From: a virus
Virus record (IMG/VR): IMGVR_UViG_3300025815_000061
Span: 1 to 31,887 of that record
Strand: one strand, 5' to 3'
DNA: 31,887 nt
Below are positions 2,064-20,156 of the stretch, piece after piece. The first letter of the stretch is position 1; each line of letters opens with the position of its first letter. Under the pieces are notes generated by a model. It searched no databases and was not told where the DNA came from. It saw only the letters and a program-made list of their open reading frames with translations. A program made the translations under genes and the position numbers.

Positions 2064-2075
2064 GCTCACAAAAAA

Positions 2076-2139: not shown

Positions 2140-2156
2140 CGCGATTCCTTTCTAGA

Positions 2157-2218: not shown

Positions 2219-2237
2219 TTTTTGGAAATCGTTCATT

Positions 2238-2841: not shown

Positions 2842-2847
2842 GATTGG

Positions 2848-4809: not shown

Positions 4810-4814
4810 GGTTA

Positions 4815-5021: not shown

Positions 5022-5024
5022 TTC

Positions 5025-5903
5025 TTACAGCAGGGTTTCTTCTTTCTGTTGTGCAGGAGCCTCTGCTGGCTTCTCCGTGGCTTTCTTTTTCTCAAAGGGA
5101 TCGACGGGCGCCTGTTCGGTTGGTGCAGCCTGTGCGTCGAACCAATCCTCCTTCGCGCTCATGCCGTCCCGGAGGCTGGTGTAGATTCGGCGCAGCCTGA
5201 GCACCTGTGCGGGCGTGATAGAATCCATTCGTCGTTGGATAAATCCCTCGATCATCGCTTTGGTGACGCCAAACTCCCCAAACTTTGAAAGGATCGAGCT
5301 TTGTGCTTCCGGCCCAGTGTCAGCGCTCGCCTGGAGCGTCACTTGGCACTGACTCACCGCATCCTCGATGATGTCACCGGGGATAACTGCCAGGATGCAT
5401 GCACGGAGTCGCCGAGCAGCCTGATTCGCGCAGAGTTCGTAAATGTCCCGCTCGTCCTTCAGCGCATAGCCTCCCTTTTTTGTGTCGCGCCAATGGCGGA
5501 CGGTGAATGTTCGGGGGACTCTCGTATTCGTCTCAAGATCCCAGGCGTAGGTTTCCACGGTGGAAATACCAACGCCGTCTTTGTCCTGCTTCCGGTCCAC
5601 CTCCCTCCAACCGCTCTCGATGTTCCCCCATTGCTGGGCGACCGCCTCCGCTAAACGAATGGACGGCCCAGCGACTTCAGTGCCCCCTCGTGAGAAGGTG
5701 TAGGTCGATTGCTCCGCCAGCGTCTTGCGGGAGCAGGCGTTCGCGATCCGGTCGATGGCAGCCTTTTCGTCTCGCGGGAATCGTTTCGCGGCAAGCATGG
5801 CCATCATGACCTGACCAGTCTCCCGGCTCGCCAAGGCGGCACCGAGTGGCGAATCAGCCGTTGGTTGTAATTGTGCGCCGAGTGGCGCCAGTTCTTCCTT
5901 CAT
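5025..5903 (-). CDS. Putative single-strand annealing / recombination protein
   Basis: A 292-residue protein with a well-ordered core: FSRGGTEVAGPSIRLAEAVA, then WGNIESGWREV, ETYAWDLETNT, and YELCANQAARRLRACILAVIP near the middle. I recognise this conserved pattern from phage proteins generally annotated as hypothetical or recombination-associated. The C-terminal 40 residues are a Pro/Glu/Lys-rich tail. Its place at the head of an operon with a YqaJ-type exonuclease makes a RecT/Red-beta-like annealing function likely; I infer this mainly from the partner gene. The ATG at 5903 has no Shine-Dalgarno sequence. A strong nested hairpin lies upstream at 5926-5992. Confidence 0.65.
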   Translation of the reverse strand: MKEELAPLGAQLQPTADSPLGAALASRETGQVMMAMLAAKRFPRDEKAAIDRIANACSRKTLAEQSTYTFSRGGTEVAGPSIRLAEAVAQQWGNIESGWREVDRKQDKDGVGISTVETYAWDLETNTRVPRTFTVRHWRDTKKGGYALKDERDIYELCANQAARRLRACILAVIPGDIIEDAVSQCQVTLQASADTGPEAQSSILSKFGEFGVTKAMIEGFIQRRMDSITPAQVLRLRRIYTSLRDGMSAKEDWFDAQAAPTEQAPVDPFEKKKATEKPAEAPAQQKEETLL

Positions 5904-5925
5904 GTTTCGTAAGGGTAAAAGTGAA

Positions 5926-5992
5926 GGAGAGAGCCAAGGGAACCCCCGTAGCCGCTGGAGGAGGATGCGGCTATCAAAACCCTGGCTCTCCC
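5926..5992 (-). promoter_or_regulatory. Nested hairpin in the leader of the annealing-protein gene
   Basis: On the minus strand an outer stem (GGAGAGCCAGGG with CCCTTGGCTCTC) encloses an inner stem TAGCCGC/GCGGCTA whose loop is CCTCCTCC-rich. It lies between the lipoprotein stop (6000) and the annealing-protein ATG (5903). No T run follows, so it is not a standard terminator. It could be an RNA control element, a processing site or a protein-binding site. Confidence 0.5.
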
Positions 5993-5999
5993 CAAGGCG

Positions 6000-6434
6000 T
6001 TACTTGCTGCCTTGCAGCAAAACGGGCCGAGCTAACTCAAGGCCAACGTTGATCGAGTCCGCAATGAGGCGGTTCGTCGCCTGGTCGCCGTAGTGGTCCG
6101 CGATCCGTCCCACAGTGAGCACCCCCAGGCCATAGAGAGGTTCGTCGAATGACGCGAAGTCCACGTCCCCCGTGATCTGGTGTTCGGCGAGCGCCTCCAT
6201 CACAGGCGCAAGCTCGGGCTTCGCCTCGACTGCCTGCTGGACAATCAAGGCTCCCCCGGCAGAAACAATCGTCTGCCCCAGCGGAGATTTCAAAAATCCC
6301 CAGGTTTGGGCACAGGATGGAAGTACCACCAGCGTCACGCCGCAGAAGACTCCAGCGAGGAAGATGGTAAGTGTTCTGGAAATGCGCTCGGCTCGGCCAG
6401 GCGCCCGGACAATGGGTGATTGCACGTGTCTCAT
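6000..6434 (-). CDS. Putative lipoprotein of unknown function
   Basis: A 144-residue protein. After a basic N-terminus comes a hydrophobic segment (TIFLAGVFCGVTLVV) ending in LPSC, near residue 41, which resembles a lipobox. The mature part is short and helical with no recognised domain (HQITGDVDFASFDEPLYG). It would be anchored at the inner or outer membrane. It follows the 30-residue membrane peptide gene by two bases, so the two are probably translated together. Position in the early region rather than the lysis cassette argues against a spanin. Superinfection exclusion or another envelope role is possible but speculative. Confidence 0.6.
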   Translation of the reverse strand: MRHVQSPIVRAPGRAERISRTLTIFLAGVFCGVTLVVLPSCAQTWGFLKSPLGQTIVSAGGALIVQQAVEAKPELAPVMEALAEHQITGDVDFASFDEPLYGLGVLTVGRIADHYGDQATNRLIADSINVGLELARPVLLQGSK

Positions 6435-6436
6435 AG

Positions 6437-6529
6437 TTAGTCGGAGTAAGGTGAAAGGAGAATCAAGAGAGAGGCGGCAATGGCCAAGAGAAGGGCCAGA
6501 ATGACGCCGTTGAAGAATAGTTCACTCAT
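6437..6529 (-). CDS. 30-residue single-pass membrane peptide
   Basis: A very short gene from the ATG at 6529 encodes MSELFFNGVI followed by an almost unbroken run of Leu, Ala and Ile, and ends LSPYSD. This is a classic single transmembrane helix. The stop lies two bases before the lipoprotein ATG, implying one translation unit. No Shine-Dalgarno sequence is visible. The composition and coupling make it more credible than a random frame. Function is unknown. Confidence 0.55.
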   Translation of the reverse strand: MSELFFNGVILALLLAIAASLLILLSPYSD

Positions 6530-6976
6530 GGTTAGGTTTGTTTGTTCGGGTTGCGGGATTGCTGGGCTGTGCGGCTGCCGCTCGGTTGATGCCGTCAGTT
6601 TTTTGCCGCTGCGATTCGGCCCAGGAGAATAGGGTGACCATTATAATGCCCCCCCTGTTTGAAAATTGAGCCAGCGGCAGCCCCCCGAATGTGTGGCCAG
6701 ACGGAGGCCGAATGAAAACTCACGAGGCACTTTCAACCCCGGGCCAATTCCGTAACCGCAGGGACGCATGACAATCCCCTGCCGATCGCTGCCGCTGGCC
6801 GCTCGGGAGCATTCTCTGCTCCCGAAATCTGCTACCCTGCCCGAAGGACAGAAATACGTATGATGCCCCCATCCCTCGGGGGAAGGCTTGAGTGGAACCT
6901 TTGTTTCCGGGGTGTTTCCCGGTAGATTCAAAAAACAGTCTTGCAGTTTGCTCCCCGCCTCTGCTACCCGAGCGGA
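6530..6976. other. Non-coding control region between early genes and integrase
   Basis: No convincing gene lies here. A perfect TATAAT can be read on either strand at 6640-6647 (self-complementary CATTATAATG), but without a matching -35 box. The 12-base inverted repeat GCCAGCGGCAGC (6670-6681) / GCTGCCGCTGGC (6788-6799) and a related GCTGCCGCT at 6574-6582 may be protein-binding sites. A perfect 8-base stem with a 5-base loop (CGGGAGCA/TGCTCCCG) lies at 6804-6824. Such a cluster beside an integrase could hold arm sites or the attachment site, but no core is identifiable. Confidence 0.4.
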
Positions 6977-7987
6977 GTGAAAATCAAGGGCCTCTACCAG
7001 AAACGGGAGTTCTTTTACTTCCAGCCGCCGATGGTGCAGGGTGTTCGCCCGAAGCCCATCGCGCTCCGCACGAAGAACCTGCACGAGGCCATTCGGATGG
7101 CTACAGAGCTTCGCCAACGACTTTCCTTCGATCAAGATCCGGATCGCCTTAGCCATGCGATCAAGCGCTACATCGGAGAGAAGCGAGCCCTTCAGGAAAT
7201 GACTCGCGGCACCCTTGAGCACACCGAGCGCTTTTTGGAGCGCTTTGCGGCCTGGGCCGGAGACATCCTGATCGCGGAGCTTTCCCGATCCCACATCGAG
7301 AACTTCCGCCTGCACCTCAATGAGAAGGGGCTGAAGGCCAGCACGATCGTCTGCCAGATGCGGAGACTCCAGGGTTTCTGTTCCTGGCTCAAGGCCAAAG
7401 ACAAGATCCTGAGAAGCCCTTTCGAGGGAGTGAAGCTGCCGACTATCAAGCGGACCCAGGCCATCACATTCTGCACCCGAGAACAGCGCGATCACTTGAT
7501 CGAGTGTTGCGACCGCGAAGACCTGCATTTTATCCTCATGGCGGGATTCTTCCTTGGGCTGCGGATCGGCGAGATCATCGAGGCAGTTCCCTCGTGGTTC
7601 CGAACACCGGGAGTCGTGGAGCTGACGGAGACGGCGCACTTTCAACCCAAGGACAAAGAGCGGCGCCTGATTCACTACGGCGACCGCTTCGCCCAATTCC
7701 TCGCCTCTTACGGGCTCCGTGAGCCCTTCATGGTGAGGCCCGAGGTCCGCCATGGCCGAGGCCGCATGCGCTGGCACTGTGAGCGACCCTGGAAGGCTTT
7801 GGTTGATTCTACGGAGCTTCCCTGGGTGACGCCGCACGTGATGCGCCACACTTTCGCCACGCTGCACATCCAGGCAGGAACACCTCTCGCCACCGTGGCG
7901 CGATGGCTCGGCGACTCCTACGCCGTTACCTTCGCCCACTATGCGGCCTATGCCCCTACCGATGCTCATATCAGGAACCTTGACTGA
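6977..7987 (+). CDS. int: Tyrosine recombinase (integrase)
   Basis: A 336-residue site-specific recombinase. The N-terminal part is an arm-binding and SAM-like core-binding region (HTERFLERFAAWAG). The catalytic domain shows Arg in LGLRIGE (residue 196), His and Arg in PHVMRHTFA (287 and 290), and the nucleophile Tyr in TFAHYAAYAP (322). The usual His/Trp of the LGH/W motif is Asp here (RWLGDSY), which is uncommon. I chose the GTG at 6977 (VKIKGLYQKR). A TTG at 6941 in the same frame is the alternative. It is one of only three rightward genes and converges on the excisionase-like gene with a 17-base overlap. Confidence 0.93.
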   Translation: MKIKGLYQKREFFYFQPPMVQGVRPKPIALRTKNLHEAIRMATELRQRLSFDQDPDRLSHAIKRYIGEKRALQEMTRGTLEHTERFLERFAAWAGDILIAELSRSHIENFRLHLNEKGLKASTIVCQMRRLQGFCSWLKAKDKILRSPFEGVKLPTIKRTQAITFCTREQRDHLIECCDREDLHFILMAGFFLGLRIGEIIEAVPSWFRTPGVVELTETAHFQPKDKERRLIHYGDRFAQFLASYGLREPFMVRPEVRHGRGRMRWHCERPWKALVDSTELPWVTPHVMRHTFATLHIQAGTPLATVARWLGDSYAVTFAHYAAYAPTDAHIRNLD

Positions 7988-8219
7988 GGATTGATTCCAA
8001 CGCTTCGCTGCGCTCTTGGTTGGCCTCTGCGGCCTCCAGCACGCGGTCCAGGGTTTCCCTGCGGAAATAGTCTCCGCGGGCCGTCTGAAAGTAAGGAACG
8101 AGGAGCTTCGGATACCGCCGCAGCAGTTCCTTGAAGACAGACTTCCCCCCGCAGTAAACCTCCGAGTCGCCTCGGTTGAGTCCCCCAGCGGGAGTGCTGA
8201 TGGTTGTTTTTTTGTTCAT
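7971..8219 (-). CDS. Excisionase-like small DNA-binding protein
   Basis: This 82-residue protein contains a core GGKSVFKELLRRYPKLLVP followed by YFRRETLDRVLEAAE. This resembles the winged-helix fold of phage excisionases and MerR-type adaptors, in which a short recognition helix is followed by a beta wing and a helix. The ATG at 8219 overlaps the stop of the upstream gene by one base, which fixes the start. Its tail end overlaps the convergent integrase. That pairing with an integrase is the main reason to call it a recombination directionality factor. A general regulator remains possible. Confidence 0.55.
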   Translation of the reverse strand: MNKKTTISTPAGGLNRGDSEVYCGGKSVFKELLRRYPKLLVPYFQTARGDYFRRETLDRVLEAAEANQERSEALESILSQGS

Positions 8220-8542
8220 CAGTCCAATTCGGTGAGCAGTCTTTGCAATCGCTCGCTGCGGTCTGCGCACTCCGGGCAGGGTTGATGACTGGCGGGGTCG
8301 TTGGCGTGCCCCATGATTAGCATACCCGTCCCATCGCATCTGCGGCAGGCTTCGCTTTCGGCAATGCACTCCTCGATGCAAAGGGTTTCCCGAAGGCCAC
8401 GAATCGCCTTTAGCTTGGCGTCAACGTGATCCTGGGTCGTTTGGCGACCGTCGGATTCCTTGGCGTAAATCGCGGCCAAGGACCGCAGCTCGCGCTCGAC
8501 GCATCCCTGTGATGGGACGATTGAAATGGGGCCGCAGTTCAT
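8219..8542 (-). CDS. Small zinc-ribbon protein
   Basis: This 107-residue protein has two CxxC pairs, CRRCDGTG and CPECADR, spaced about 25 residues apart. The pattern is like one zinc site of a DnaJ central domain. The N-terminal half is helical (ERELRSLAAIYAKE). A good ribosome site (GGAGGAGG) precedes the ATG at 8542, which overlaps the stop of the RHH-like gene by four bases. Such small zinc proteins are frequent in phage early operons. A specific role cannot be given. Confidence 0.7.
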   Translation of the reverse strand: MNCGPISIVPSQGCVERELRSLAAIYAKESDGRQTTQDHVDAKLKAIRGLRETLCIEECIAESEACRRCDGTGMLIMGHANDPASHQPCPECADRSERLQRLLTELD

Positions 8543-8718
8543 TCGGCCTCCTCCACTTTGGCGGGGTGAATTGTAGCCTTGCCGCTCTTCACTGCGGAGA
8601 GCGCCCAATCGAGCACTGCGGCGGTCGTGGCCTTCAGCGAAAGCCCTCTCCTCTTTGCCAACCGAGTGAGGTCACGCTTATGGTTTTCTGTTACCTCAAT
8701 AAGCATTTTTTTGCCCAT
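8539..8718 (-). CDS. Small ribbon-helix-helix-like regulator
   Basis: A 59-residue protein starting MGKKMLIEVTENHKRDLTRLAKRRG. One strand followed by two helices is the layout of an Arc/MetJ-type ribbon-helix-helix protein, and ATTAAVLDWALSAV would be the second helix. It is the first gene leftward from the divergent control region, opposite the XRE repressor, as Cro-like or early regulators often are. Longer in-frame starts exist (to 8754) but would overlap the operator dyad. The assignment rests on pattern, not on a diagnostic residue. Confidence 0.55.
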   Translation of the reverse strand: MGKKMLIEVTENHKRDLTRLAKRRGLSLKATTAAVLDWALSAVKSGKATIHPAKVEEAE

Positions 8719-8796
8719 GAGGGAACTTGTATCTCGTTGCACAGCAGGATACAACCCTAAAGTTGCCTAAAACAAAACTTTTTTGTATGTTCCGTT
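8719..8796. promoter_or_regulatory. Divergent promoter/operator region of the repressor
   Basis: The half-site TTGTATC (8727-8733) and its inverse GATACAA (8748-8754) form a dyad, and a third TTGTATG lies at 8783-8789. The repressor starts at 8797. A weak rightward promoter, TTGCCT (8763-8768) and TATGTT (8786-8791) with a 17-base spacer, would begin transcription about at the repressor ATG. A weaker leftward TTGTAT/TACAAG pair overlaps the dyad and points to the ATG at 8718. Neither ATG has a ribosome site, so leaderless mRNAs are possible. Confidence 0.5.
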
Positions 8797-9258
8797 ATGA
8801 AAATAACGAACAACACCCGAGCGCTGATCCTCAATGCGCTAAGGACCAAGGGGTTGACTCAAACCCAGCTGGCGGAGGAGATGGGCTATGGGAAGGCGTG
8901 GGTGACGCGACTTCTCGATGGGACACTCAAGCGACTGAAGGAGGAACAAATCGACAAGTTGCAAGACTTCCTTGGGATCAAGTTTTTTGTGGTGAAAGAC
9001 CTGCGCCCGCAGCTCCCTCCCTCACTAATGAACCTCGCCAGGATCGCAGAGGATAACGAAACCCTCATGGATCTGCTGACGACACTGGAGCATCTACTCC
9101 AACAGGAGGCCCCGCTAACTGCCCCCTACATCCCAACGAAAAACATGACCAAGCTCGGCCAGGAGATCATTCGACTGGCCTACGCCAACGAAGACAAGCC
9201 CGGGAAAGTCGCCCGGGAGGTTCTTCGCCTGCTCTCAGAGAAGGGCATGGGGTTGTAA
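8797..9258 (+). CDS. XRE-family helix-turn-helix repressor
   Basis: A 153-residue protein. Residues 18-42 form a helix-turn-helix of the XRE type (KGLTQTQLAEEMGYGKAWVTRLL), followed by KEEQIDKLQDFLGI, typical of the Cro/CI DNA-binding domain. The remaining 90 residues are mainly helical and lack a visible Ser-Lys self-cleavage pair, so it is not obviously a LexA-type repressor. It faces leftward early genes across an operator-like dyad, so it is the best candidate for the lysogeny repressor. Confidence 0.85.
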   Translation: MKITNNTRALILNALRTKGLTQTQLAEEMGYGKAWVTRLLDGTLKRLKEEQIDKLQDFLGIKFFVVKDLRPQLPPSLMNLARIAEDNETLMDLLTTLEHLLQQEAPLTAPYIPTKNMTKLGQEIIRLAYANEDKPGKVAREVLRLLSEKGMGL

Positions 9259-9265
9259 AAATCAA

Positions 9266-9910
9266 CTAACCCAGGCGATCCTTCAGCTTGGCCAGCTGCC
9301 ACTCGATCGCCTCAATGGACTGCATCGCGATCGGATCCGGCCCGCCGCGATCTGAGTCCCTTGGCATCGGCTGATCTTGCTCGTGGGCATGCATCAGCTC
9401 TTGCACGCCAGCGCGGAAGTCTTTCAGATCGACTTTCTTCCCCGGGCATGACTTTGATGTCCGAGGGTCGTCTCGGTGGCCGTTGATGGAGTCCACGCCC
9501 CATCCGGTTCTTTCAAGAATTGCGGCTGCCGCACGGGTTGCCATGTTCCAGCAGGCCAGCCCTCGCCCAGAGTAGGGATCCTCTGAATCGTAGTCGCCGA
9601 GCACTTCAATCCCGATGTGGGAGCGGTTGAAGCTGACGGCGTGAACGCCTCGCTCATCCAGTGGGCTCATCCCAAATATCTGATCATCGTCGATGAAAAG
9701 GTGCGGACCCCTGCTCCATCCAAGCGTGCCCTGGTAGTAGCTTTGGATGTTCTGGATGTGTTGGGCCTTGAGCCCGTTCGGACGCTGCCGGAGGGAAGGG
9801 GAAGCCGTGTGATGCATGGTGATCCCGCGAGCCCACGAAAGGTCAACGGTGCGCAGATAATCCGCGAAGCTCGCCCCATCCCACACTCGACCAACAAGGG
9901 AGAAACTCAT
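9266..9910 (-). CDS. Endolysin: N-acetylmuramoyl-L-alanine amidase (Amidase_2)
   Basis: A 214-residue protein of the T7-lysozyme/PGRP-like zinc amidase family. Zinc ligands are visible: His in MHHTAS (residue 33 or 34), His in NGHRDD (145) and Cys in SCPG (155). The substrate-groove motifs GWSRGPHLFID (64-74) and HIGIEVLGDYD are also present. It cuts the bond between N-acetylmuramic acid and L-alanine in peptidoglycan. About 40 residues at the C-terminus form a short charged helix, with no obvious cell-wall-binding domain. There is no signal peptide, so it should depend on the holin encoded just upstream, whose stop overlaps this ATG by four bases. Confidence 0.93.
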   Translation of the reverse strand: MSFSLVGRVWDGASFADYLRTVDLSWARGITMHHTASPSLRQRPNGLKAQHIQNIQSYYQGTLGWSRGPHLFIDDDQIFGMSPLDERGVHAVSFNRSHIGIEVLGDYDSEDPYSGRGLACWNMATRAAAAILERTGWGVDSINGHRDDPRTSKSCPGKKVDLKDFRAGVQELMHAHEQDQPMPRDSDRGGPDPIAMQSIEAIEWQLAKLKDRLG

Positions 9911-10140
9911 GGCGCAGGAATGGCTTTGCCTTTGATGAAGCTCCGGCCCGCGGTGTAGGAGCCGGCGATTCCCGTATTGGCCAGGATGGCGGAGATCAAA
10001 ATTTCAGGATCGATAGAGATGCCCCAGCGTGATAGAAAACCCGATCCGATACCAATCGCGAGATTGATCACCATGGCAATGACAGAGCCCTTCCACTCGG
10101 TGGTCTGGCTCCCCGTTTTTTGTGCTTGTTCTGTGCTCAT
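9907..10140 (-). CDS. Holin-like membrane protein
   Basis: This 77-residue protein has a hydrophilic start (MSTEQAQKTG) and a hydrophobic segment SVIAMVINLAIGIGSGFL. A second, weaker one follows (PEILISAILANTGIAG) before a basic end. Size, two membrane helices and placement directly before the endolysin fit a class II holin. The ATG at 10140 is preferred because the preceding gene stops five bases earlier, and a longer frame would overlap it. Confidence 0.7.
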   Translation of the reverse strand: MSTEQAQKTGSQTTEWKGSVIAMVINLAIGIGSGFLSRWGISIDPEILISAILANTGIAGSYTAGRSFIKGKAIPAP

Positions 10141-10144
10141 GCGT

Positions 10145-10711
10145 CTAGAGTTTTTCCGGAATAGCAATTCCCGCGATCCCGATTGGTTGCTCAATACCGT
10201 CCGCGTATCGCGGATATTTTATGATCCTCATAGGCTCAATGGATTTGTCTGGCATTTCGATCCGCTCCATCAGATCCATCACCTCACGCCTCCTCCATAC
10301 CTCCTTATCGTTGGCCATGAATTCAGCGGCTATCTCTGCGGGCCAGACCGCTGCATCAGTGTGATGGAGGTAGTCTTGGAGTTTATAGCCTCGAGGAAGC
10401 AGAAATGCCCTCTCATAAGCTCGGTTTACTGCGAGAACACGGCCATCCTCATCTTTCACCCATTGCGGGAGCGGCGATGAATCATGAGAGGATGAAAGAA
10501 TGATGAACTGCGTCAGTAAGCGCTGATTCTCGTTTTCCAAGAGCTGGCAACGCTTTTCGAGCCCTCTCTTCGCCAGCTCCAGCTCCGCTAGCCTTTTCTC
10601 TAAATCATCACGGAGACGAGTGGCACTTGCCACTTGCATCCTCCAAAGCTGCGCCAGCGCAGCTGCCATGACGCCAATGGCCGTCATGAGTGCCCCCTCG
10701 ATTCCTGTCAT
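10145..10711 (-). CDS. Membrane-anchored coiled-coil protein with a PAS-like domain
   Basis: A 188-residue protein with three clear parts. Residues 5-24 are an N-terminal transmembrane helix, and 28-68 are a heptad-rich coiled coil (LEKRLAELELAKRGLEKR). From about 80 to 186 there is a domain with PAS features: LPQWVKDEDGRVLAVNRAYERAF at its start and IGIAGIAIPE at its end, as in the closing strand of sensor PAS domains. No kinase or output domain follows. It lies directly upstream of the holin in the lysis cassette, where membrane plus coiled-coil proteins often act as inner-membrane spanins. A role in timing or sensing lysis is my inference. Confidence 0.65.
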   Translation of the reverse strand: MTGIEGALMTAIGVMAAALAQLWRMQVASATRLRDDLEKRLAELELAKRGLEKRCQLLENENQRLLTQFIILSSSHDSSPLPQWVKDEDGRVLAVNRAYERAFLLPRGYKLQDYLHHTDAAVWPAEIAAEFMANDKEVWRRREVMDLMERIEMPDKSIEPMRIIKYPRYADGIEQPIGIAGIAIPEKL

Positions 10712-10750
10712 AATCTGAAAATTGAATGCTAGACTTGCTCTTTTCCAGCC

Positions 10751-11299
10751 TCAGAAATGGGCGTTTCTCTGGCGAAAGACGAGTCCTGTTGAACGAAGAA
10801 AATCTCGCGCCATCGTCGATCGCTCTTTTGCCTGGGCGGTGTGTCTCTCCAAGAACCGGAATCCATATTGCCTGAATACCTTGATCCAGTAATCGGAGGG
10901 TTGGCAGTTGACGTGATGGTGCCCGCCGGCGCCAGGCGGCGCAGCCGTCATGATGACAAATCGGCAGCGCTGAAAGGCGTGCATGGCATTCGGAAGAAAT
11001 CGTTCCTCAATGTGCTCTAGAAATTCAACGGACCATCCAAGATCGTATTTTTTCAAGCCTACGCAGATGCCTTTCGTGAAGTCATGTCGAATCAAGCCAG
11101 GGAAACCATCGATGGACGGATCACCGTCGATCCCATCAGCCAAGCGCAAGAGCTTGGAGGCGAGGCGAACCATCCCGCCAGGTCCGCATCCAATATCAAG
11201 GAAGCTTTGCGCCTTCCATCTTGCAATGGCCCATCGGAGAGCTCCCTCATCAATGTGAGTGATCCCAGCATGGCCTCCAAGATGAGCGCCAGTCTTCAT
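10751..11299 (-). CDS. SAM-dependent methyltransferase (class I)
   Basis: A 182-residue protein with the glycine-rich SAM-binding motif LDIGCGPGGM at residues 34-43 and the acidic end of strand two at GIDGD (56-60). A later block, YDLGWSVEFLEHI, matches the post-II/III region of small-molecule and sugar methyltransferases of the Methyltransf_11/23 group. The start overlaps the stop of the glycosyltransferase gene by four bases. As the last gene of a sugar cassette, it could methylate a sugar residue to cap a chain. That is inferred from context, and other targets are possible. Confidence 0.75.
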   Translation of the reverse strand: MKTGAHLGGHAGITHIDEGALRWAIARWKAQSFLDIGCGPGGMVRLASKLLRLADGIDGDPSIDGFPGLIRHDFTKGICVGLKKYDLGWSVEFLEHIEERFLPNAMHAFQRCRFVIMTAAPPGAGGHHHVNCQPSDYWIKVFRQYGFRFLERHTAQAKERSTMARDFLRSTGLVFRQRNAHF

Positions 11300-12096
11300 A
11301 GGCCAAGGCGAGCAGAGAGATGGTGTGGAAGGGAATCCGCGGACTGCTTGACTTGTAGTGACAGAAGGGCCGCAAGAATGTGATCACGAGGCTCTGGTTT
11401 CCTTAGAAACCCTTCTCCGATTGCCACCACCTCCAGCCCCTGAATCATGGAGCACTCAAGAAGTGATGTCGAGTTGATCCCATAGACGAGCGAAGCATGC
11501 CTAGCGATCTTCCGGATGTCTCCATGCTTCACAAGGGGGAATCCATTGGTGTCATAGTTGGATGAGTCACGCGGATGCCTCTTGAAGACGAGAGGCATGC
11601 CAGACTCAAAGAAGAATTCACAGCAGTGATCTATGAAGTGCTGCATCAGCTTGAAAGGAGAGTGCTTTCTGATTTGAGTGTCGCTCTCAAGCTGAAGCGG
11701 GATCAATACATATCCATGAGGATCATGTTTTGGGACATAATGCTTCTGGAACTCCCTAAAGTCGTCTAACTGGTCACTTGTGAGCCACTCTAGTGAGTCA
11801 TTCATCACAGATGACTCCGGGCCAATGCCCATGGCATCGTAAAACACATTCCCAAATTGAGGAAAGAAACCGAGCTCGGCATAGATGATCTTCACGCCTC
11901 GTGACTTGGCTAAATCTACCGCTGGCCGCTGCCATTCATTCTGACCATTCCATACAACCAGCAGATTGCTGCCTTCCATTTTCTCTTTGAAATCCAAAGG
12001 GCCTCCCCATTCATAATCCCATCCTCGGCTTGATAGATGCCGGATCAATGGATCGAAGCATACCCAGTCTTTGTCTTTAAGAAATGTGGCCTTCAT
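11296..12096 (-). CDS. Capsule-type glycosyltransferase-like protein (KpsS/KpsC-like)
   Basis: A 266-residue protein. Residues 130-142 (VLIPLQLESDTQI) closely follow the pattern found in capsule polysaccharide synthesis proteins, and FKRHPRD (171-177) and GINSTSLLEC (206-215) give the nucleotide-sugar side of a GT-B-like fold. The family transfers Kdo or related sugars. The ATG at 12096 overlaps the end of the heptosyltransferase-like gene by 20 bases, and the stop overlaps the methyltransferase start. A longer start is possible but would duplicate most of the preceding gene's end. The neighbours suggest it extends a glycan begun by the other enzymes. Confidence 0.65.
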   Translation of the reverse strand: MKATFLKDKDWVCFDPLIRHLSSRGWDYEWGGPLDFKEKMEGSNLLVVWNGQNEWQRPAVDLAKSRGVKIIYAELGFFPQFGNVFYDAMGIGPESSVMNDSLEWLTSDQLDDFREFQKHYVPKHDPHGYVLIPLQLESDTQIRKHSPFKLMQHFIDHCCEFFFESGMPLVFKRHPRDSSNYDTNGFPLVKHGDIRKIARHASLVYGINSTSLLECSMIQGLEVVAIGEGFLRKPEPRDHILAALLSLQVKQSADSLPHHLSARLGL

Positions 12097-13228
12097 CGAT
12101 GCATTGTTGAAAAGCTGAGATGACTTTCTCTGGGGTGATTGATCGGCTGCATTCAAATTGACGCGAAGTCCCTTTGCGGTCAGGGCACCATTGCCAGTCA
12201 TTGGCCTGAATGCGATGACGGTTAAAACATCCAGCGCAAACATTGTCAGGCGCTGAAACTTTCACAGCCTCGCTCATTTCAGTCCAGGGATGAGAGAATC
12301 CGCTAACTAGCACGGTTGGCGTTTCTAGTGCCCATGCCATCCAAGTCAACCCGGACCCCACTCCTATGAATGCGTCTGCATGGCAGATGAATGTTGCTGT
12401 GGTTTCTATCTGATAGTCCGGCAGTCGTTCGGCATCCGCCGGCAAACGGTTCCCCATGAAACCATCTTCTTCGCGAGAAGCAATAAACACGCGATATCCT
12501 CGGGATTTCAGCCAGGAGGTCACCTCATCCCATCCAGATGGGTGATTCCAATATTTGGCTTGAGAGGTCGAATGAATACCGAGGCAGACATAGTGGTCAT
12601 CAACCGGCCTACCTCTGGTCGAGATAGAAACCCTTGGCCTAATTTCAACCGGCGGAAGGCCCAGTTGGCGAGCGGCTGTCCACTGCAAAGGCTCCGTCCT
12701 GGGGTCGTGACTGTGCTTGGTCGGATCTGGCAGCGACTCTTCAGATTCATCATAGAAAAATCCAATATTTGTGAGTGCGTAGATGTTCTTGACCTCAACT
12801 CCCGGCCCAATCCATTCAATCGAAGGATACGCAGACTCCACCCATTCGTTGTGATGAGAGCAGGCGACCACTTTGCATCCCCATCTCTGCTGAAAATTCT
12901 CCAGGTAAGGGACCCATGCCAACGTGTCCCCCATTGAGGAGGAGCCGATGGAAACCAACACCCTCTGCCCAGAAGGATTGAAGCGATGCTCATAAACATG
13001 AGCGCCGTCTCGCTTAATCACTACCCTCCAATCTTCAAGCCAATAGAAAGGGAAGATGACTTCTCCTGTTGCTTGAGCAGTTGCCGATCTTAGGACCCCC
13101 TGGCCGTCGTAGAGAAAAACATCATGCGGCAAAGACGTCGGCATGATGACATGAATTCCACCGACAAAATGCACCATGAATGAAGGCGCAATTTCAATGT
13201 CCTCATAGGGATCTCTCATTAAGCGCAT
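12077..13228 (-). CDS. Autotransporter-heptosyltransferase-like O-glycosyltransferase (Aah/TibC type)
   Basis: A 383-residue protein matching the bacterial autotransporter heptosyltransferase family through its length. The segments are SIGSSSMGDTLAW (93-105), the nucleotide-sugar site HSTSQAKYWN (219-228) and GVGSGLTWMAWAL (289-301). Four cysteines follow at 331, 334, 348 and 360, in CAGC, WQWCP and FEC. They match the iron-finger of TibC. Known members transfer heptose from ADP-heptose to serines in repeat regions of AIDA-I/TibA adhesins. Here the adjacent gene encodes a tail protein with hundreds of Ser/Thr residues in repeats. The start may be the ATG at 13228 or at 13219. The acceptor and the sugar donor are unproven. 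Confidence 0.82.
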   Translation of the reverse strand: MRLMRDPYEDIEIAPSFMVHFVGGIHVIMPTSLPHDVFLYDGQGVLRSATAQATGEVIFPFYWLEDWRVVIKRDGAHVYEHRFNPSGQRVLVSIGSSSMGDTLAWVPYLENFQQRWGCKVVACSHHNEWVESAYPSIEWIGPGVEVKNIYALTNIGFFYDESEESLPDPTKHSHDPRTEPLQWTAARQLGLPPVEIRPRVSISTRGRPVDDHYVCLGIHSTSQAKYWNHPSGWDEVTSWLKSRGYRVFIASREEDGFMGNRLPADAERLPDYQIETTATFICHADAFIGVGSGLTWMAWALETPTVLVSGFSHPWTEMSEAVKVSAPDNVCAGCFNRHRIQANDWQWCPDRKGTSRQFECSRSITPEKVISAFQQCIDEGHIS

Positions 13229-14129
13229 CAGCTAGTGATTTCGGGTCGTCAAGGTCAATAAAACTCACATCGTCATCTGCGTGAGATCCCTCATAAACTT
13301 CGAGGGGAGAAATGAAACAGGGGAGGCCAGCAGATAGAGCTTCTCTTAGAGAGATCGGCGCCAGCTCCTTCGTGGAGGGCAGCACAAATGCATCAGCGGC
13401 CTTTAGGATCTTGTCGATATCTCTCCTCTCTCCCCACACTTTACAATTCGATGGAACCGTGAGCCTGCTCCAGTAATCCTCCATGTTCGGCGCCCGATTC
13501 CCTACAAAGTGAACCTCCCAACTGTCCGGAAGGTGCCTTGCGGCATCAATCGTCCAATCCTGGCGCTTGTGGGCGGTCCAAAGCCCCAATTGCACTAAAT
13601 GCTTTTTCTTTGGATCCATGCCTAAAGATCGCTGAAGCGTTCTCTTAAAAGACTTAGGCGGAGGGCGTCGAGTGATTGGGTATTCCCAAACAACTACGTC
13701 TGCCGAGGGAATCTGTTGGTGAATCATTCGGGCCTGCCAATGACAGACCGCAATATATCTATCTGCCTTGTAAGGTAGCGATGAGTAATCAAGATCCCGC
13801 TCATGTGAGGTTAGGACAAATATCCATCTTCCTCTCCTTTGAAGGATGTCGCCGACTGTTTTTTTCGTCAGGAAGGACGTCGGCTCCTCTTGGAAATGCA
13901 CTAAATCAGGATTGAGATCATCAATCAGTGAGATCAGTGATCCCTCATTTCCATTATGACATGACCAGTCATGGCCCTTGCGGATATTGTCTCTCTGAAC
14001 AGTGTAATCGTCAGAGTAGTTTTTAAATTCGGCAAAGTGGAATTCATGAGGGCATTGTTTCATGAATTGCTCCACATAGGCCGGCATTCCTCCAGTGCTA
14101 CAGTGGGGAGCGATGATGAGTGATTTCAT
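13203..14129 (-). CDS. GT-B glycosyltransferase (family 4-like)
   Basis: A 308-residue protein. The glycine-rich turn STGGM is at residues 11-15. LGLWTAHKRQD (181-191) starts the C-terminal nucleotide-binding domain. The E-x7-E motif is in PSTKELAPISLREALSAG (Glu245 and Glu253). These are hallmarks of retaining GT4-type enzymes. It is somewhat shorter than average for the family. I chose the ATG at 14129 because an extension to 14264 would run into the repeat region of the tail gene. It starts 19 bases after the tail gene stop and heads the sugar cassette. Base composition looks more A/T-rich than in the tail genes, which may indicate acquisition. Confidence 0.85.
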   Translation of the reverse strand: MKSLIIAPHCSTGGMPAYVEQFMKQCPHEFHFAEFKNYSDDYTVQRDNIRKGHDWSCHNGNEGSLISLIDDLNPDLVHFQEEPTSFLTKKTVGDILQRRGRWIFVLTSHERDLDYSSLPYKADRYIAVCHWQARMIHQQIPSADVVVWEYPITRRPPPKSFKRTLQRSLGMDPKKKHLVQLGLWTAHKRQDWTIDAARHLPDSWEVHFVGNRAPNMEDYWSRLTVPSNCKVWGERRDIDKILKAADAFVLPSTKELAPISLREALSAGLPCFISPLEVYEGSHADDDVSFIDLDDPKSLADALNERSL

Positions 14130-14148
14130 GGTCAAGGGTTGTGCTCTA

Positions 14149-17100
14149 TCAGACAGACGTTCCCGAGGTTCCAGAGCTGCCGCTCGTTCCTGACGTGCCG
14201 CTGGACCCATTGATCCCGCTTGTCCCGGAACTGCCATTGATTCCGCTTGTTCCGGAGGTTCCACTTGTCGGCGTGGCTATAAGATTTGCCCATGTGCCGC
14301 CCTCTTGCCTCCATTGGAAATAGCCGCCAGAGATTCTCATCTCAACGCTGTATCCAGACGTCCCTGACGTCCCTGAGCTCCCGCTAGTCCCTGAGCTTCC
14401 TGAGCTTCCAGAACTGCCACTCGTCCCGCTCGTCCCATTCACCCCGGAGGTCCCCGACGTTCCAGAAACCCCTGAGCTCCCAGACGTTCCACTAGATCCC
14501 GAACTTCCAGAACTGCCACTCGTCCCGCTCGTCCCATTCACCCCGGAGGTCCCCGATGTCCCTGAGACTCCCGAGCTTCCAGATGTTCCAGAGCTCCCCG
14601 AACTGCCTGAGCTCCCCGAGCTGCCGCTAGTGCCACTGGTTCCATCGTTGCCCGAGGTCCCCGACGTTCCATTTACACCCGAGCTTCCGCTAGTGCCCGA
14701 GCTTCCTGAGCTGCCATTCACTCCTGAACTGCCCGAAGTCCCATCTTGGCCCGAAGTGCCACTGGTTCCATTTACACCTGAACTTCCCGATGTCCCGCTC
14801 GATCCGGAGCTTCCACTCACTCCTGAGCTGCCGCTGGTGGCCGAAGTCCCAGAGCTTCCCGAGGTCCCCGATTGTCCTGACGTTCCCGAGGTTCCCGATA
14901 CTCCGCTGCTGCCTGACGTTCCGCTGCTCCCGGAGGTTCCTGACGTGCCATTGTCGCCGTCTACTCCAGATGTCCCGGAGGCTCCTGAGCTTCCGCTAGT
15001 CCCTGAGCTTCCTGAGCTGCCACTTGTCCCATTGACCCCCGACGTTCCATTATTGCCATTGATTCCGCTAGTGCCCGATGTCCCGCTCGATCCGGAGCTT
15101 CCAGAACTGCCCGACGAAGAGCTTGTGCCCGATGTCCCACTAGTTCCGTCGTTGCCATTGATTCCTGATGTTCCAGAAGTGCCACTGGAACCGGAGCTGC
15201 CGCTGGAACCGGAGCTGCCGCTGGAACCGGAGCTGCCGCTGGAACCAAACCCAAAGGCCGATGGATACTCCATCAGGATTGTCCCGGAAGAATCCACCCG
15301 AGGAACCTTCCCTGAATCAGCGACGGTGACATCTGGGAGCTGTTTGTGCCGCGCCCTGTCAGAGTAATACTCCACCCCATGGCGATAGTAGACGACGGTG
15401 ATCTTGCCGCTTGAGTTGGTGGCGTCGAGGATGTGCCAGGCGTATTTCCCTACATCGCCCGAGCTCCCGGGAGCGTCGTAATTGTCGGGAGTGTGCTTTT
15501 TGAGCCCGGTCGGCTTCGAGGTTCGCCACTCCGTGGTCACGGCGGTGATGGCCCCGTCCTTGTCGGTGTCCGCGATCACCCAAAGCTGCTCGGTGCCCGT
15601 GATGGCTTTCGCGGCGCCCGGGTCGCAGTTGTGCACGGTGTCCCCGTCCTCGGTCAGGTCTCCATCCTCGACGAGAATCTTGCCGCCCTTCTCTATCGTG
15701 TAGCCAAACCCCTGAGAGATATTTATCGCCGGCTCCGTGGTTGTATTGCTACGCGGCGCCTGGTGCCCTCCAATCGACTGCGGGGATTCATCGGGCTCCT
15801 CATCCCTCGTGCGGAAAGTTTGCTTAGGAAGCATCCTGGCGAGCCTGAGCGACTCGAGGAAGTCTTGCGGAGAAAGATGCTCGGAAGGGCCGAAGGTGAT
15901 CGTGTCGCGGCCCGTTTGCAGATCCTGCGAAATCGTCTGGATCGTGCCGCCTGGGATCAGGACGGCTGTCCCATCGACGAGCTTGACCTTCTGGCCTACC
16001 GCCGGCGGGCCGTCCGGGATGATATCCGTGCCGTCGCGAAGCTCGATCGGCGTTCCGTCTCGAAGTGTGACCGCGCCGGGATCGTCGATGACCGAGCCCG
16101 CTTCTTCATCAATCAACGTAATCGTTCCTTCATAGGGGAGTGCATCGAGCGACTCATAATATGCTTGGGCCAGGCCAGTTGGGGTCGCCTCTGCAGGGGC
16201 TGATTTGACAACCTTCTTGTAAACCTTGTTCTGCGCGTTGGTCCCCGTGACTTCGATCGATACCCGGATTGCAGGGTAGGGCGTTCCCCCAACGTCTATC
16301 TGATCGGTAAAGATGGCCTTGGATGCGGCAGTTTGGGGATCGTTGTCGTAGGCAATGATCGCATCGATGCGCAGTCGTTCAGCCCGCACCCCCATCCAAT
16401 CCTCAATATTCCCATCGAGTAGCTCCCGCGGATAGTCCGCCGGGTCGGTGGAATCGGCGAGCGTGTTCTCTGGGTCGATCGCTTCCGGAAGCGTGGAATC
16501 AGAGGGCCGCGCAAACTCGACGGTGAAACCTCCAACGATCCAATCGTCGAAAGCAAAGTTGTTTAGCCATGGCAGGTGATCGCGCATCCACCGTTCCATG
16601 TAGCCGCCATTGAAACCGAGCGAGGTCGTGCCCGTGGGGATGGCTCGCGTGCGGATCTTCTGTTTTTGGTGTGATCGAGCTGAACCTCTCAGCGGAATCG
16701 TTGCCACAATCCCGCCAGGAGCTCGGCCTGTGGCATCCGCCGGATAGATGTCGCTCTCGACGGTCGTGTAGGTGTTCCCGTCAAAGTCGTGATCCTTCTC
16801 GTATTTGAATTGGACGAACGGCGGAACCAGATCCTTCCGGTGAGTGTATCGCGTGCTGACGACTCGTCTATCCGTGGCATCTAACTCATAGAGCGTGGTC
16901 GGCTCCACAATGTGGAGGATGGGAGTTTCCGCGGAGTAATCGAAAGAAGCGACGGCGCCTGGATGCCAACGCATGATCGATCGCACGACTTCCGCGCACG
17001 TCTGATCCCGTCCCTCAACACTCCAGACTTGCTGGCCGGCGAGGACATTCCCGATGCCGAAAGGGGCGGCCAACCCTGCCTCCTGAACGGAGGCGATTAC

Positions 17101-17631
17101 GTAGGCCAAGATCGCGTCGAGCTGGTCGCCGGTTGTGATCAGCGTGCCGGCGTCGTTCATCCCAAGCAGGACGTGAGAACGGAGCGCGGATTTCAGCTCG
17201 ACGGGCGAACCGCTGACGCTGGCATCGAGATCAATCTCAGACCAGTTCTGTTGGAAGACGAGGTTTTCTAGATACCACCATGGCCCAGAGATCTCGAACG
17301 TCTGCCCCTCGGATCCATCCTGATCTCCGATCCATGGGAGCTTGGTGACGATCCCCTGAAACCATTTCAGGTTATTCCGGTAGACCTTAATCGTGTCCCC
17401 ATAGGAAAATGGCGGGACAGGGTTTGCCTCAACCGGGCTGGCATCTCTGAGCTCGATGGGGGAGAGATCACGAAGCACGATGTTATCCACGCCATCGACA
17501 TCTGGAACATCGACGATTTCGAGCGTCAGGACATCAGGTGTCATGCTCTGCACCCTGCGGGAAGCCATCGTCACTCCCCACGCCTCAGCGGATTGTCTCG
17601 TCCCCTTGTGCTCGATTTCCCAGAAGGCCAT
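14149..17631 (-). CDS. Tail hub/tip protein with a collagen-like Gly-Ser/Thr-Ser domain
   Basis: A 1160-residue protein. Roughly the first 780 residues look like a phage tail hub or baseplate protein, with repeated RDxxPIELRD-like strands and strand-rich segments such as FGPSEHLSPQDFLESL. It is encoded directly after the tape measure, as in siphoviruses. From about residue 795 to 1092 come nearly 100 Gly-X-Y triplets with X and Y mainly Ser, Thr, Asn, Val or Asp and no proline (GSSGTSG types). A short non-repetitive strand region follows (GGYFQWRQEGGTW), then about 40 more repeat residues to the end. Such collagen-like domains form trimeric fibres. The very high Ser/Thr content offers many possible O-glycosylation sites, and the next genes are glycosyltransferases. 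Confidence 0.8.
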   Translation of the reverse strand: MAFWEIEHKGTRQSAEAWGVTMASRRVQSMTPDVLTLEIVDVPDVDGVDNIVLRDLSPIELRDASPVEANPVPPFSYGDTIKVYRNNLKWFQGIVTKLPWIGDQDGSEGQTFEISGPWWYLENLVFQQNWSEIDLDASVSGSPVELKSALRSHVLLGMNDAGTLITTGDQLDAILAYVIASVQEAGLAAPFGIGNVLAGQQVWSVEGRDQTCAEVVRSIMRWHPGAVASFDYSAETPILHIVEPTTLYELDATDRRVVSTRYTHRKDLVPPFVQFKYEKDHDFDGNTYTTVESDIYPADATGRAPGGIVATIPLRGSARSHQKQKIRTRAIPTGTTSLGFNGGYMERWMRDHLPWLNNFAFDDWIVGGFTVEFARPSDSTLPEAIDPENTLADSTDPADYPRELLDGNIEDWMGVRAERLRIDAIIAYDNDPQTAASKAIFTDQIDVGGTPYPAIRVSIEVTGTNAQNKVYKKVVKSAPAEATPTGLAQAYYESLDALPYEGTITLIDEEAGSVIDDPGAVTLRDGTPIELRDGTDIIPDGPPAVGQKVKLVDGTAVLIPGGTIQTISQDLQTGRDTITFGPSEHLSPQDFLESLRLARMLPKQTFRTRDEEPDESPQSIGGHQAPRSNTTTEPAINISQGFGYTIEKGGKILVEDGDLTEDGDTVHNCDPGAAKAITGTEQLWVIADTDKDGAITAVTTEWRTSKPTGLKKHTPDNYDAPGSSGDVGKYAWHILDATNSSGKITVVYYRHGVEYYSDRARHKQLPDVTVADSGKVPRVDSSGTILMEYPSAFGFGSSGSSGSSGSSGSSGSSGSSGTSGTSGINGNDGTSGTSGTSSSSGSSGSSGSSGTSGTSGINGNNGTSGVNGTSGSSGSSGTSGSSGASGTSGVDGDNGTSGTSGSSGTSGSSGVSGTSGTSGQSGTSGSSGTSATSGSSGVSGSSGSSGTSGSSGVNGTSGTSGQDGTSGSSGVNGSSGSSGTSGSSGVNGTSGTSGNDGTSGTSGSSGSSGSSGSSGTSGSSGVSGTSGTSGVNGTSGTSGSSGSSGSSGTSGSSGVSGTSGTSGVNGTSGTSGSSGSSGSSGTSGSSGTSGTSGYSVEMRISGGYFQWRQEGGTWANLIATPTSGTSGTSGINGSSGTSGINGSSGTSGTSGSSGTSGTSV
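14150..15249 (-). repeat. Coding repeat array for the collagen-like domain
   Basis: About 1 kb of 9-base degenerate repeats (triplets of Gly codon plus Ser/Thr-type codons). It is interrupted at about 14271-14355 by a non-repeat stretch. Several longer blocks are reused almost exactly, for example 14415-14460 and 14515-14555. The array is codon-diverse but highly self-similar, so it should be prone to length change by slippage or recombination. It also makes long false open frames on the plus strand. Confidence 0.85.
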
Positions 17632-17633
17632 GG

Positions 17634-20156
17634 CTATCGCTGATTGCGCAGGTTTTTCACCTGCCCTTGAAGATTGTCTATGGTGGAGAGAGCGCGGGCC
17701 ATCTCAGATTCCAGAGCAGCAGCCCGAGCCCCAACAGAAAGCAGCCCCTGAACGCCCGACTGTTGGGTTGCGAGGATTTGAGCAAGGATTCGGCGAAGGC
17801 TGGCCGTTTGCTCCTCAAGCACGGCACCGAGTCGCTGGGCATCCTCATTCGTCGATGTGACTGCCTGCTGAGTGATGTCGCCGACTCCCGCCAGGTTGCC
17901 CTGGCCGACTCCCTCAGAAACACCCTCAATCCTTCCTTGCTGGGCAGGATCAACGGCAATGGCCGCCAGTCGCTCCAGCGTGGCCGCGATTCCCCCGAGC
18001 ACGTCGCCTCCTTGATCCTGTAGCGTCGAGAATCTATTCTCTTCAGCTTTCGCTCGCTCCTTCCGTTGGTTGGCCTGAGCCGAGGAAACCGCGCTCTGTG
18101 TCTCTCCTTGGGCAAGCTGGCCCTGGAGCCTGGCCTTTTCGCGCTGGAATTCGATCTCGTCTTGCAAAGCCCGAATCTCTCTGGCGTGGCCCGCCCGCGT
18201 AGCCTCAAATTCAGATGTTAGGTCGGTGACTTCCTGCTTGGCGTTGGCGAGTGCCTCCTGCGCTGATTTCAGCTCAGATCGGGCTTGTTTCTTCCTCTCG
18301 TCATCAACAGGTAATTCTTGGCCCCGCTTCAAATCAAGAAGCTGGCTTTCAAGCCGAAGGCGCTGGTTGCGAACCGACAGCTCAAGGAAACTTGGCCCCA
18401 AGCTTCCATCTTTTTGAAGATCGGCCTCACGCTTTTCCAGTCCGGCAATCTTTGTCTCAAGCCGATTGATGAAGTCTTGGCGGGCCGACCCCGGACGCCC
18501 CCTCAACTCCGCCTCAAGTGAGGCGATCTGATTGGCGAGCTTTGACTCCTGTTCAGCCTGAAACGATATCTTCTGTTGAAAATCAACACGCTGTTGCTCT
18601 GCCAGCTCCAGCGTCCGCTGGAGCCCCTGGATCGTGTTCTGTGAAGTGGCCTGGCCAGCGGCTTCCCTCGCTGCACCCTTCCGCCGCTCCTTCTCCAGTG
18701 GGCTCAGGGTTTTGTCTCCCTCGATCTCCTGAATCTGGAGTTTCAGCCGAAGGTCCACCAGTTCATTGGCTCGCGTGACATTCTTCTGAATCGACCGCTC
18801 AAGCCGATCGTAGTTTGCAGCCAACCGAGAAATGCTGGCCTCTGCTTCCTCCGCCCCCTGTTTGGCTGCTGCTTGCAGGTCAGCGACGATCTCCTTGACC
18901 TTCTCCGTCTCCTCTGCGGCCTTGTCCGCGATTTTCTCGATCTGCTGGGGCATCAGGCCCAGGAACCGGAGAGTGCCGATCAGTGCCGCCGTAAGGCCAT
19001 TGAGCGAGGAAATCATCACCCTTACTCCCGCCTTGAACGGCGCTGCAAATGGAGTGGCCACGGCAGCGGTGAACTGCCCCCAGGCATCCCGAAGCGTCGA
19101 GATCAGACCGTTGATGGTCTTCGATCGACGCTCCATCTCGCCCTCGAAGCTCTTCAATGTAGATTCCAGCAATCCCCATGCCTCCTCCCCCCGAGTGCCT
19201 TCCTTGTGCAACTCACGGAGCTTGAATGAAGTGTCAGCCGAAATAAGGCCCAGCTCCTGAAGTCGGAGGGTTGATTCGCCAATCTCCCCTTTGCCGGATT
19301 TCAGGGCGGCATTGAGCCGGCCAACGTGGAGCGCCACATTTTGGATTGTCTGGTCGAGTGATTCGCCTGGCCGCTGGGCGACCGCCGCAGCATCACCCAC
19401 AAGTCGCAGGCTCTCTTCGGCGCCGAGCGCGTTCCCCGAGAGCGTTTCAAGAACACGGCTGGCCGTTGCCAGTCCGGCGATTGAGAGCGGCGTCTTGGCC
19501 GCAAACTCGCGCATTTCCTGAATGCGCTGCTGTGCTTTGTCTACCGACCCAAGGAGTGTCGTAAAGGATGCCTCCAGATCCTCCGTGACGCCGATCGTCC
19601 CAATGCCCTGGCGGACGATTCCGACGAAGCCAAGAAACCCTGCGGCCAGTGCTGCAATCTTGACCGTGGCCGAGGAAGCTCCGGAAGCGATGGCATTGAA
19701 GAAACCACTGAGCCGGCCACCGACCGGGATGGCGTTGTTCAGCTCCTGAAGCTTGCCCTTCGTCCGGTCGATCCATTGCGTTCGCGGCCCCTTGGAAAGC
19801 TCGTCCTTGGTCCTTCGGATGGCCGGTTGAACCTGCTGCACCCGTTGTTTGAGCGTTCCGAATCGCTGCTGGAGTCGAGCCAGTCCGCGGTCATCGAGAT
19901 TACCGACCTTGAGCCCCTTCAGGTCTTCCTTGGTCTTCGCAATCTGCTTTTGCAGTTTCCGGAATTCCCGAGTCCCAACGTCCGCTTTAGAGAGCGCGGC
20001 CTCTGCCTGCTTCAGCTCCTTCTCTAACTCATCGACGGACGTCTGCGCCTGATCGACGGTTTTCGTCAGGTTCTTGAGATCGGCCTGAGTCTTCTTGGCA
20101 CCGTCTCCACGGGCCTTTGTCTCAATACCGATACTGTAGCGCTTGTCTTCAGCCAT
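17634..20156 (-). CDS. Tail tape measure protein
   Basis: An 840-residue protein. The N-terminal 150 residues are a coiled coil (DELEKELKQAEAALSK), followed by a hydrophobic stretch TVKIAALAAGFLGFVGIV. The conserved tape-measure core SFTTLLGSVDKAQQRIQEMREFAAKTP comes next, with AAAVAQRPGESLDQTIQNVALHVGRLN. The second half is almost entirely long helices with a Lys/Glu/Gln-rich repeat-like character. It fixes tail length and is ejected during DNA delivery. At about 840 residues, a siphovirus-like tail of moderate length would be expected. It ends two bases before the tail-hub ATG. Confidence 0.9.
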   Translation of the reverse strand: MAEDKRYSIGIETKARGDGAKKTQADLKNLTKTVDQAQTSVDELEKELKQAEAALSKADVGTREFRKLQKQIAKTKEDLKGLKVGNLDDRGLARLQQRFGTLKQRVQQVQPAIRRTKDELSKGPRTQWIDRTKGKLQELNNAIPVGGRLSGFFNAIASGASSATVKIAALAAGFLGFVGIVRQGIGTIGVTEDLEASFTTLLGSVDKAQQRIQEMREFAAKTPLSIAGLATASRVLETLSGNALGAEESLRLVGDAAAVAQRPGESLDQTIQNVALHVGRLNAALKSGKGEIGESTLRLQELGLISADTSFKLRELHKEGTRGEEAWGLLESTLKSFEGEMERRSKTINGLISTLRDAWGQFTAAVATPFAAPFKAGVRVMISSLNGLTAALIGTLRFLGLMPQQIEKIADKAAEETEKVKEIVADLQAAAKQGAEEAEASISRLAANYDRLERSIQKNVTRANELVDLRLKLQIQEIEGDKTLSPLEKERRKGAAREAAGQATSQNTIQGLQRTLELAEQQRVDFQQKISFQAEQESKLANQIASLEAELRGRPGSARQDFINRLETKIAGLEKREADLQKDGSLGPSFLELSVRNQRLRLESQLLDLKRGQELPVDDERKKQARSELKSAQEALANAKQEVTDLTSEFEATRAGHAREIRALQDEIEFQREKARLQGQLAQGETQSAVSSAQANQRKERAKAEENRFSTLQDQGGDVLGGIAATLERLAAIAVDPAQQGRIEGVSEGVGQGNLAGVGDITQQAVTSTNEDAQRLGAVLEEQTASLRRILAQILATQQSGVQGLLSVGARAAALESEMARALSTIDNLQGQVKNLRNQR

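Follow-up and report, generated by a model that had tools for sequence, protein, structure and literature searches.

A phage gene cassette that probably O-glycosylates its own collagen-like tail arm and is exchanged together with it

Bacillus BclA is an exosporium glycoprotein whose collagen-like repeats are O-glycosylated. Collagen of the animal Riftia carries galactosylated threonine, which is reported to add thermal stability (PMC10141479). For TibC, one of the TibC/Aah (BAHT) protein O-glycosyltransferases, the residues that matter are Asp110, Thr226, Lys230, Trp305 and the four cysteines of an iron finger, and Arg286 contacts the adenine of ADP-heptose (PMC4358343). Amongst phages, virion O-glycosylation has been reported for the mycobacteriophages Che8 and Rita, with major capsid proteins named in a secondary account (PMC11256854, citing Freeman et al. 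2023), and host-recognition clusters of pelagimyophages that contain rfaE and glycosyltransferase (GT) genes have been read as serving O-antigen modification (PMC7029224). Phage glycosyltransferases encoded near tail genes are usually taken to be host-surface tools; the locus described here offers a concrete alternative, with a named substrate, an initiating enzyme, a donor pathway and a natural module-exchange experiment. A search of the open-access literature for a BAHT or heptosyltransferase tied to a phage or to a collagen-like protein returned nothing on point.

The stretch of DNA analysed here (the window) is the whole IMG/VR virus record IMGVR_UViG_3300025815_000061, of 31,887 b. Its minus strand bears recognisable genes for the portal, maturation protease, scaffold, major head and tape-measure proteins, as well as a lysis module. 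All genes of the locus under study lie on this strand. The tape-measure gene (17634-20156; PHROG_973, E 1.9e-9) is followed directly by the gene for an 1160-aa tail protein, the proposed acceptor (14149-17631), and this neighbourhood assigns the acceptor gene to the tail module. After a gap of 19 b comes a gene for a GT4 glycosyltransferase, the probable chain extender (13203-14129; Pfam Glyco_trans_1_4, E 4.7e-16, 59.8 bits against a cut-off of 27), which overlaps by 26 b that for a BAHT-like (TibC/Aah) protein O-glycosyltransferase, the proposed initiator on serine (12077-13228; TIGR04414). A 20-b overlap leads to the gene for a KpsS-like (Capsule_synth) putative glycosyltransferase (11296-12096; PF05159, E 4.1e-10, 40.1 bits, cut-off 20), whose reading frame can open at 12243 but for which the ATG at 12096, in keeping with the gene spacing, is the likely start, and a further 4-b overlap leads to a probable SAM methyltransferase (10751-11299). 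The original prediction had read this order, GT4, BAHT, KpsS-like enzyme and methyltransferase after the tail gene on one strand, from the sequence, and it holds as claimed, with the qualification that the Pfam match of the methyltransferase (Methyltransf_23, E 7e-4, 19.8 bits) lies below the cut-off of 27. Between the cassette and the lysis genes, positions 10145-10711 (minus strand) encode a protein of 188 aa that contains a PAS-fold domain (PAS_4, E 1e-10), and elsewhere a protein adjoining the portal gene (28919-30355, minus strand) weakly matches tail-fibre PHROGs (E 1e-8); a fibre would be unusual there.

The tail protein consists of an N-terminal virion part of about 785 aa and a C-terminal collagen-like Gly-(Ser/Thr)-Ser domain. 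The collagen-like region (14152-15246, minus strand; Pfam Collagen, E 3.8e-43, 145.5 bits) has 110 triplets and one non-collagen insert (GYSVEMRISGGYFQWRQ...). Within the C-terminal 370 residues the 110 Gly-X-Y triplets fall into runs of 14, 30, 54 and 12; an exact Gly-(Ser/Thr)-Ser motif accounts for 87 of them, serine takes the Y-position in 94, and the 370 residues contain a single proline, so that the nearly 100 proline-free triplets originally described are borne out in substance. Runs in 2000 composition-preserving shuffles never exceeded seven triplets, compared with 54 for the longest observed, and the repeat draws on all six serine and all four glycine codons, which points to selection on the protein and not simply to young tandem DNA; taken together, run length and codon diversity rule out chance or a young tandem-DNA repeat as the origin of the array. 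The Gly-X-Y array by which a collagen-like protein is recognised is thus present, and the domain may form a triple helix. On the opposite strand a 245-aa open reading frame rich in PEVPLVP (14630-15367, plus strand) is a shadow of the repeat and an artefact. The further suggestion that this gene encodes a tail hub agrees with its position after the tape measure, but finds no echo in the protein itself: its N-terminal 780 aa gave no Pfam or PHROG match, and an AlphaFold (AF2) model of this part, from three sequences, had a pLDDT of 32 and gives no fold.

Assignment of the proposed initiator to the BAHT family is supported by both sequence and predicted structure. The protein scores 263 bits against TIGR04414 (Aah/TibC; cut-off 200) and 39 bits against Pfam Glyco_transf_9 (cut-off 22), and its nearest solved relative is TibC (5e-46). 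An AF2 model built from 24 family members (pLDDT 88.9) superimposes on TibC (4RAP) with a TM score of 0.84 over 378 columns, including the N-terminal barrel, whereas the scores against WaaC and other GT9 enzymes are 0.42-0.52. A plain LPS heptosyltransferase (WaaC/WaaF, GT9) can be rejected on these TM scores and on a family score of 41.7 bits where 185.3 is required. Residues D101, T221, K225 and W296, which correspond to TibC D110, T226, K230 and W305, do not vary among 15 phage BAHTs, and the four cysteines of the iron finger (C331, C334, C348 and C360) are kept. The position of TibC Arg286, however, is occupied by threonine in the window and is variable among phage BAHTs; accordingly we term the enzyme BAHT-like, and its donor nucleotide and sugar are unsure. 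Heptose transfer to serine and assembly as a dodecamer ring, features of the BAHT family, may apply to it as well. In a subclade of four loci (L014, L015, L016 and L017) the iron-finger cysteines are lost whilst the catalytic residues are kept, and two of these loci, L015 and L016, have Gly-Ser/Thr-Ser arrays.

A comparison of loci, begun from relatives of the N-terminus of the tail protein, reveals that the collagen-like domain, the cassette and the small gene at 10145-10711 form an exchanged block (about 10145-15349, minus strand), which in L360, L364 and L365 is replaced by non-homologous sequence between flanks that are 98-99.7% identical. In L360, 10,283 b align to the window at 98.07% identity, as far as the opening residues of the collagen-like domain; after these, L360 encodes a non-homologous Gly-(Lys/Arg)-Thr collagen-like repeat (8001-11729), an 835-aa protein ending in a GT4 domain (11729-14233) and an FkbM methyltransferase. 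The N-terminal part of the 835-aa protein, about 600 aa, matched no Pfam family above cut-off. Identity with the window returns at the last methyltransferase codons, and again at the lysis genes; the methyltransferases of the two modules share their 3' end, both proteins terminating in FRQRNAHF. L364 and L365, both of which have the alternative glycosyltransferase of the L360 type, have downstream flanks that are 99.66% (4,691 b) and 99.57% (3,241 b) identical to that of the window, respectively. Upstream, 9,192 b of L361, from the same metagenome as L365, agree with the window at 99.97%. The chemistry of the repeat and the enzymes that accompany it switch together, as one block. A chimeric assembly is unlikely as the source of this pattern, as the alternative glycosyltransferase occurs in three metagenomes (L360/L363, L364 and L365), with a near-identical downstream flank in two of them. 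The window also contains genes for a YqaJ-like recombinase and a RecE-like exonuclease (3051-4809, minus strand), functions that could aid module exchange.

Such exchange might in principle have brought in the cassette as a passenger of recombination, functionally unconnected with the collagen-like domain, as tail regions are recombination hot spots and the GC content of the cassette genes (48.5-53.9%) is below that of the surrounding head and tail genes (57-61%). We regard this explanation as very improbable, given that the same types of gene recur beside arrays in many phage and bacterial lineages and that the alternative block again places a glycosyltransferase and a methyltransferase beside a collagen-like domain.

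The recurrence of the pairing was examined across IMG/VR, where a scan with a BAHT profile found at least 565 BAHT-encoding stretches; among named phage records, 4 of 50,697 encode a BAHT. Defining an array as at least five Gly-Ser/Thr-Ser triplets and proximity as within 10 kb, and leaving out the window's own sequence, arrays lay near 23 of 78 kept phage BAHT loci against 1 of 51 random loci (p 2.5e-5), and in the reverse direction a BAHT was encoded in 16 of 50 array-bearing records, counted per record, against 1 of 50 random ones (p 3.9e-5), both comparisons being among the matches listed, with related, non-independent contigs and many fragments included and with random contigs unmatched for phage type. 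The array lies on the strand of the BAHT gene in all 23 cases, and the sole random record with a BAHT is also the sole random record with an array. The search for the same gene pairing in other phages, proposed with the original prediction, thus finds that it recurs. Mapped on a tree of 120 BAHT domains, the presence of an array switches 14 times or more, so that the array is not confined to one clade.

The original prediction had also named, as evidence against itself, a cassette kept in a conserved place in genomes lacking a Ser/Thr-repeat gene, and this is found in part: 23 of the 78 loci have an array and 55 have none within 10 kb, most of the latter belonging to a single clade. On the tree, 33 of the array-less entries group in a single 34-member clade; here the neighbour of the cassette is often an open frame of 1.8-2.5 kaa that has few motifs of this kind. 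In the reverse direction a BAHT is absent from 34 of the 50 array-bearing records, many of which are fragments. A further explanation is that BAHTs modify serine-rich parts of tail fibres generally, with the collagen-like arm as a non-essential acceptor among several. In its favour, 67 of the 78 BAHT loci have within 6 kb an open frame on the same strand that is 800 aa or longer, although the largest neighbour is rich in Gly-Ser/Thr tetrads at only 19; against this stand the strong bias to Gly-Ser/Thr-Ser arrays where a repeat is present and the joint swapping of repeat and cassette. We consider general fibre modification rather unlikely, although it overlaps with the explanation we prefer, and the alternatives discussed here are not mutually exclusive.

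The pairing extends to bacteria. In Methylococcaceae loci, whose BAHT genes are among those most similar to the phage type, a secreted Gly-Thr-Ser protein adjoins a BAHT gene among housekeeping genes, in a chromosomal context; the Gly-Thr-Ser repeat proteins at L276 (8791-9639), L277 (8771-9739) and L282 (8712-9659) have apparent signal peptides, and in each the BAHT gene follows directly. All ten bacterial loci nearest to the phage-type BAHTs have arrays, compared with 2 of the 69 others, a set that includes a 24-row clade of Pandoraea, Caballeronia, Selenomonadales and others; some of the ten, such as the contigs of Bacteroidetes and Rickettsiaceae metagenome-assembled genomes, may be phage contigs binned with bacteria.

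A cultured phage also carries the pairing. Microcystis phage Mel-JY01 encodes a Gly-Thr-Ser fibre upstream of a GT4-BAHT fusion, and is a directly testable system. Read on the plus strand, its record (L021, PP395634.1) contains a Gly-Thr-Ser fibre exceeding 1000 aa and the GT4-BAHT fusion (2-3052 and 4750-8430). The deposited record, misled by repeat-shadow frames of the same kind as that at 14630-15367 in the window, places minus-strand open reading frames over the fibre. It names the fusion 'methyltransferase FkbM'.

The partner genes of the cassette recur to differing extents. Relatives of the window GT4 enzyme are present at 64 of 98 phage BAHT loci and at 0 of 51 random loci, a GT domain and a BAHT form a single protein in many phages, and a GT4-methyltransferase fusion occurs in others; relatives of the KpsS-like enzyme or of the methyltransferase were not found at other BAHT loci at E 1e-5. 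Three loci (L029, L049 and L080) have, after the BAHT gene, homologues of both HldE domains, adenylyltransferase and kinase; these are best NCBIfam matches below the equivalog cut-offs. In L057 an HldE-like adenylyltransferase takes the same place. These neighbours support heptose as the probable first sugar in this group. No HldE-type heptose adenylyltransferase was found in the window, which would thus rely on its host for ADP-heptose.

The main rival explanation is that the enzymes act on the host surface, remodelling its LPS or capsule sugars so that other phages are kept out, with closeness to the tail genes reflecting a shared host-recognition island. Similar GT/rfaE clusters in pelagimyophages and jumbo phages have been interpreted in this way (PMC7029224, PMC7824862), the KpsS-like gene resembles capsule enzymes, many BAHT loci are array-less, and block exchange is also compatible with an island for host adaptation, with enzymes that have another target. 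Nevertheless, we judge it improbable. The initiator belongs with the BAHTs, whose characterised members act on proteins, and not with LPS enzymes of the WaaC type; the association of arrays with BAHT genes runs in both directions and reaches non-phage chromosomes with a secreted Gly-Thr-Ser neighbour; the cassette changes with the chemistry of the repeat and not with the rest of the tail; and none of the window genes tested was recognisable as an integrase.

We consider it likely, instead, that the cassette is a dedicated virion-protein O-glycosylation system that travels with its own substrate. Its action on the phage's own collagen-like arm, as first proposed, is supported comparatively in four independent ways, by the joint exchange, the two-way enrichment, the bacterial pairing of a secreted Gly-Thr-Ser protein with a BAHT, and the HldE-like neighbours. 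In the mechanism that we propose, the cytosolic BAHT-like enzyme would add the first sugar, most likely heptose from host-made ADP-heptose, to serines of the arm, mainly those in the Y-position, before or during tail assembly. The GT4 enzyme, and perhaps the KpsS-like enzyme too, would extend the glycan, which the methyltransferase would then cap or modify; this order, extension followed by a methyl cap, is plausible. The glycan would probably support the proline-free collagen-like rod and give the tail arm a variable sugar surface, and other benefits could be protease resistance or adhesion; arm and cassette are swapped as one block between related phages.

More tentatively, and with somewhat less than even confidence, we suggest that protein O-heptosylation is widespread among phages, in modular blocks each uniting a collagen-like arm, characterised by its Y-residue (serine or threonine), with dedicated enzymes for initiation and extension and in some cases with a separate source of ADP-heptose, the sugar replacing hydroxyproline as stabiliser and providing a swappable tail surface; many rfaE and GT genes now called LPS-modifying would then be tail-glycosylating. 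If the cassette does act on the arm, tail-arm O-glycosylation would be a common layer of phage surface chemistry, the substrates of the BAHT family would include, besides autotransporters, collagen-like proteins of phages and bacteria, and there would be a hint as to how proline-free collagens could be stabilised.

Set against described systems, the locus extends two known kinds, BAHT protein O-glycosylation and phage virion glycosylation. With the TibC/Aah BAHTs it shares the family score, the predicted fold, the catalytic aspartate, the phosphate-binding threonine and lysine, the heptose-contacting tryptophan and the four-cysteine iron finger, as well as a gene position adjoining that of a repetitive, serine-rich surface protein. 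It differs from them in that the neighbour is a collagen-like phage tail arm and not an autotransporter, in that the adenine-contacting arginine (Arg286) is not conserved, and in the pairing or fusion of phage BAHTs with GT4 enzymes and their pairing with a methyltransferase. Compared by description, the mycobacteriophage systems similarly use phage-encoded glycosyltransferases to decorate virion proteins, but the targets there are capsid proteins, whereas here a BAHT and a tail arm move as one block. The likeness to BclA, again one of description, spans a different organism and different enzymes, and Riftia collagen, in which sugar is likewise placed on hydroxyl residues of the triplets, is an animal collagen and serves as an analogy only. 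In the pelagimyophage clusters, finally, rfaE-type and GT genes similarly adjoin tail fibres, but have been interpreted as modifying O-antigen.
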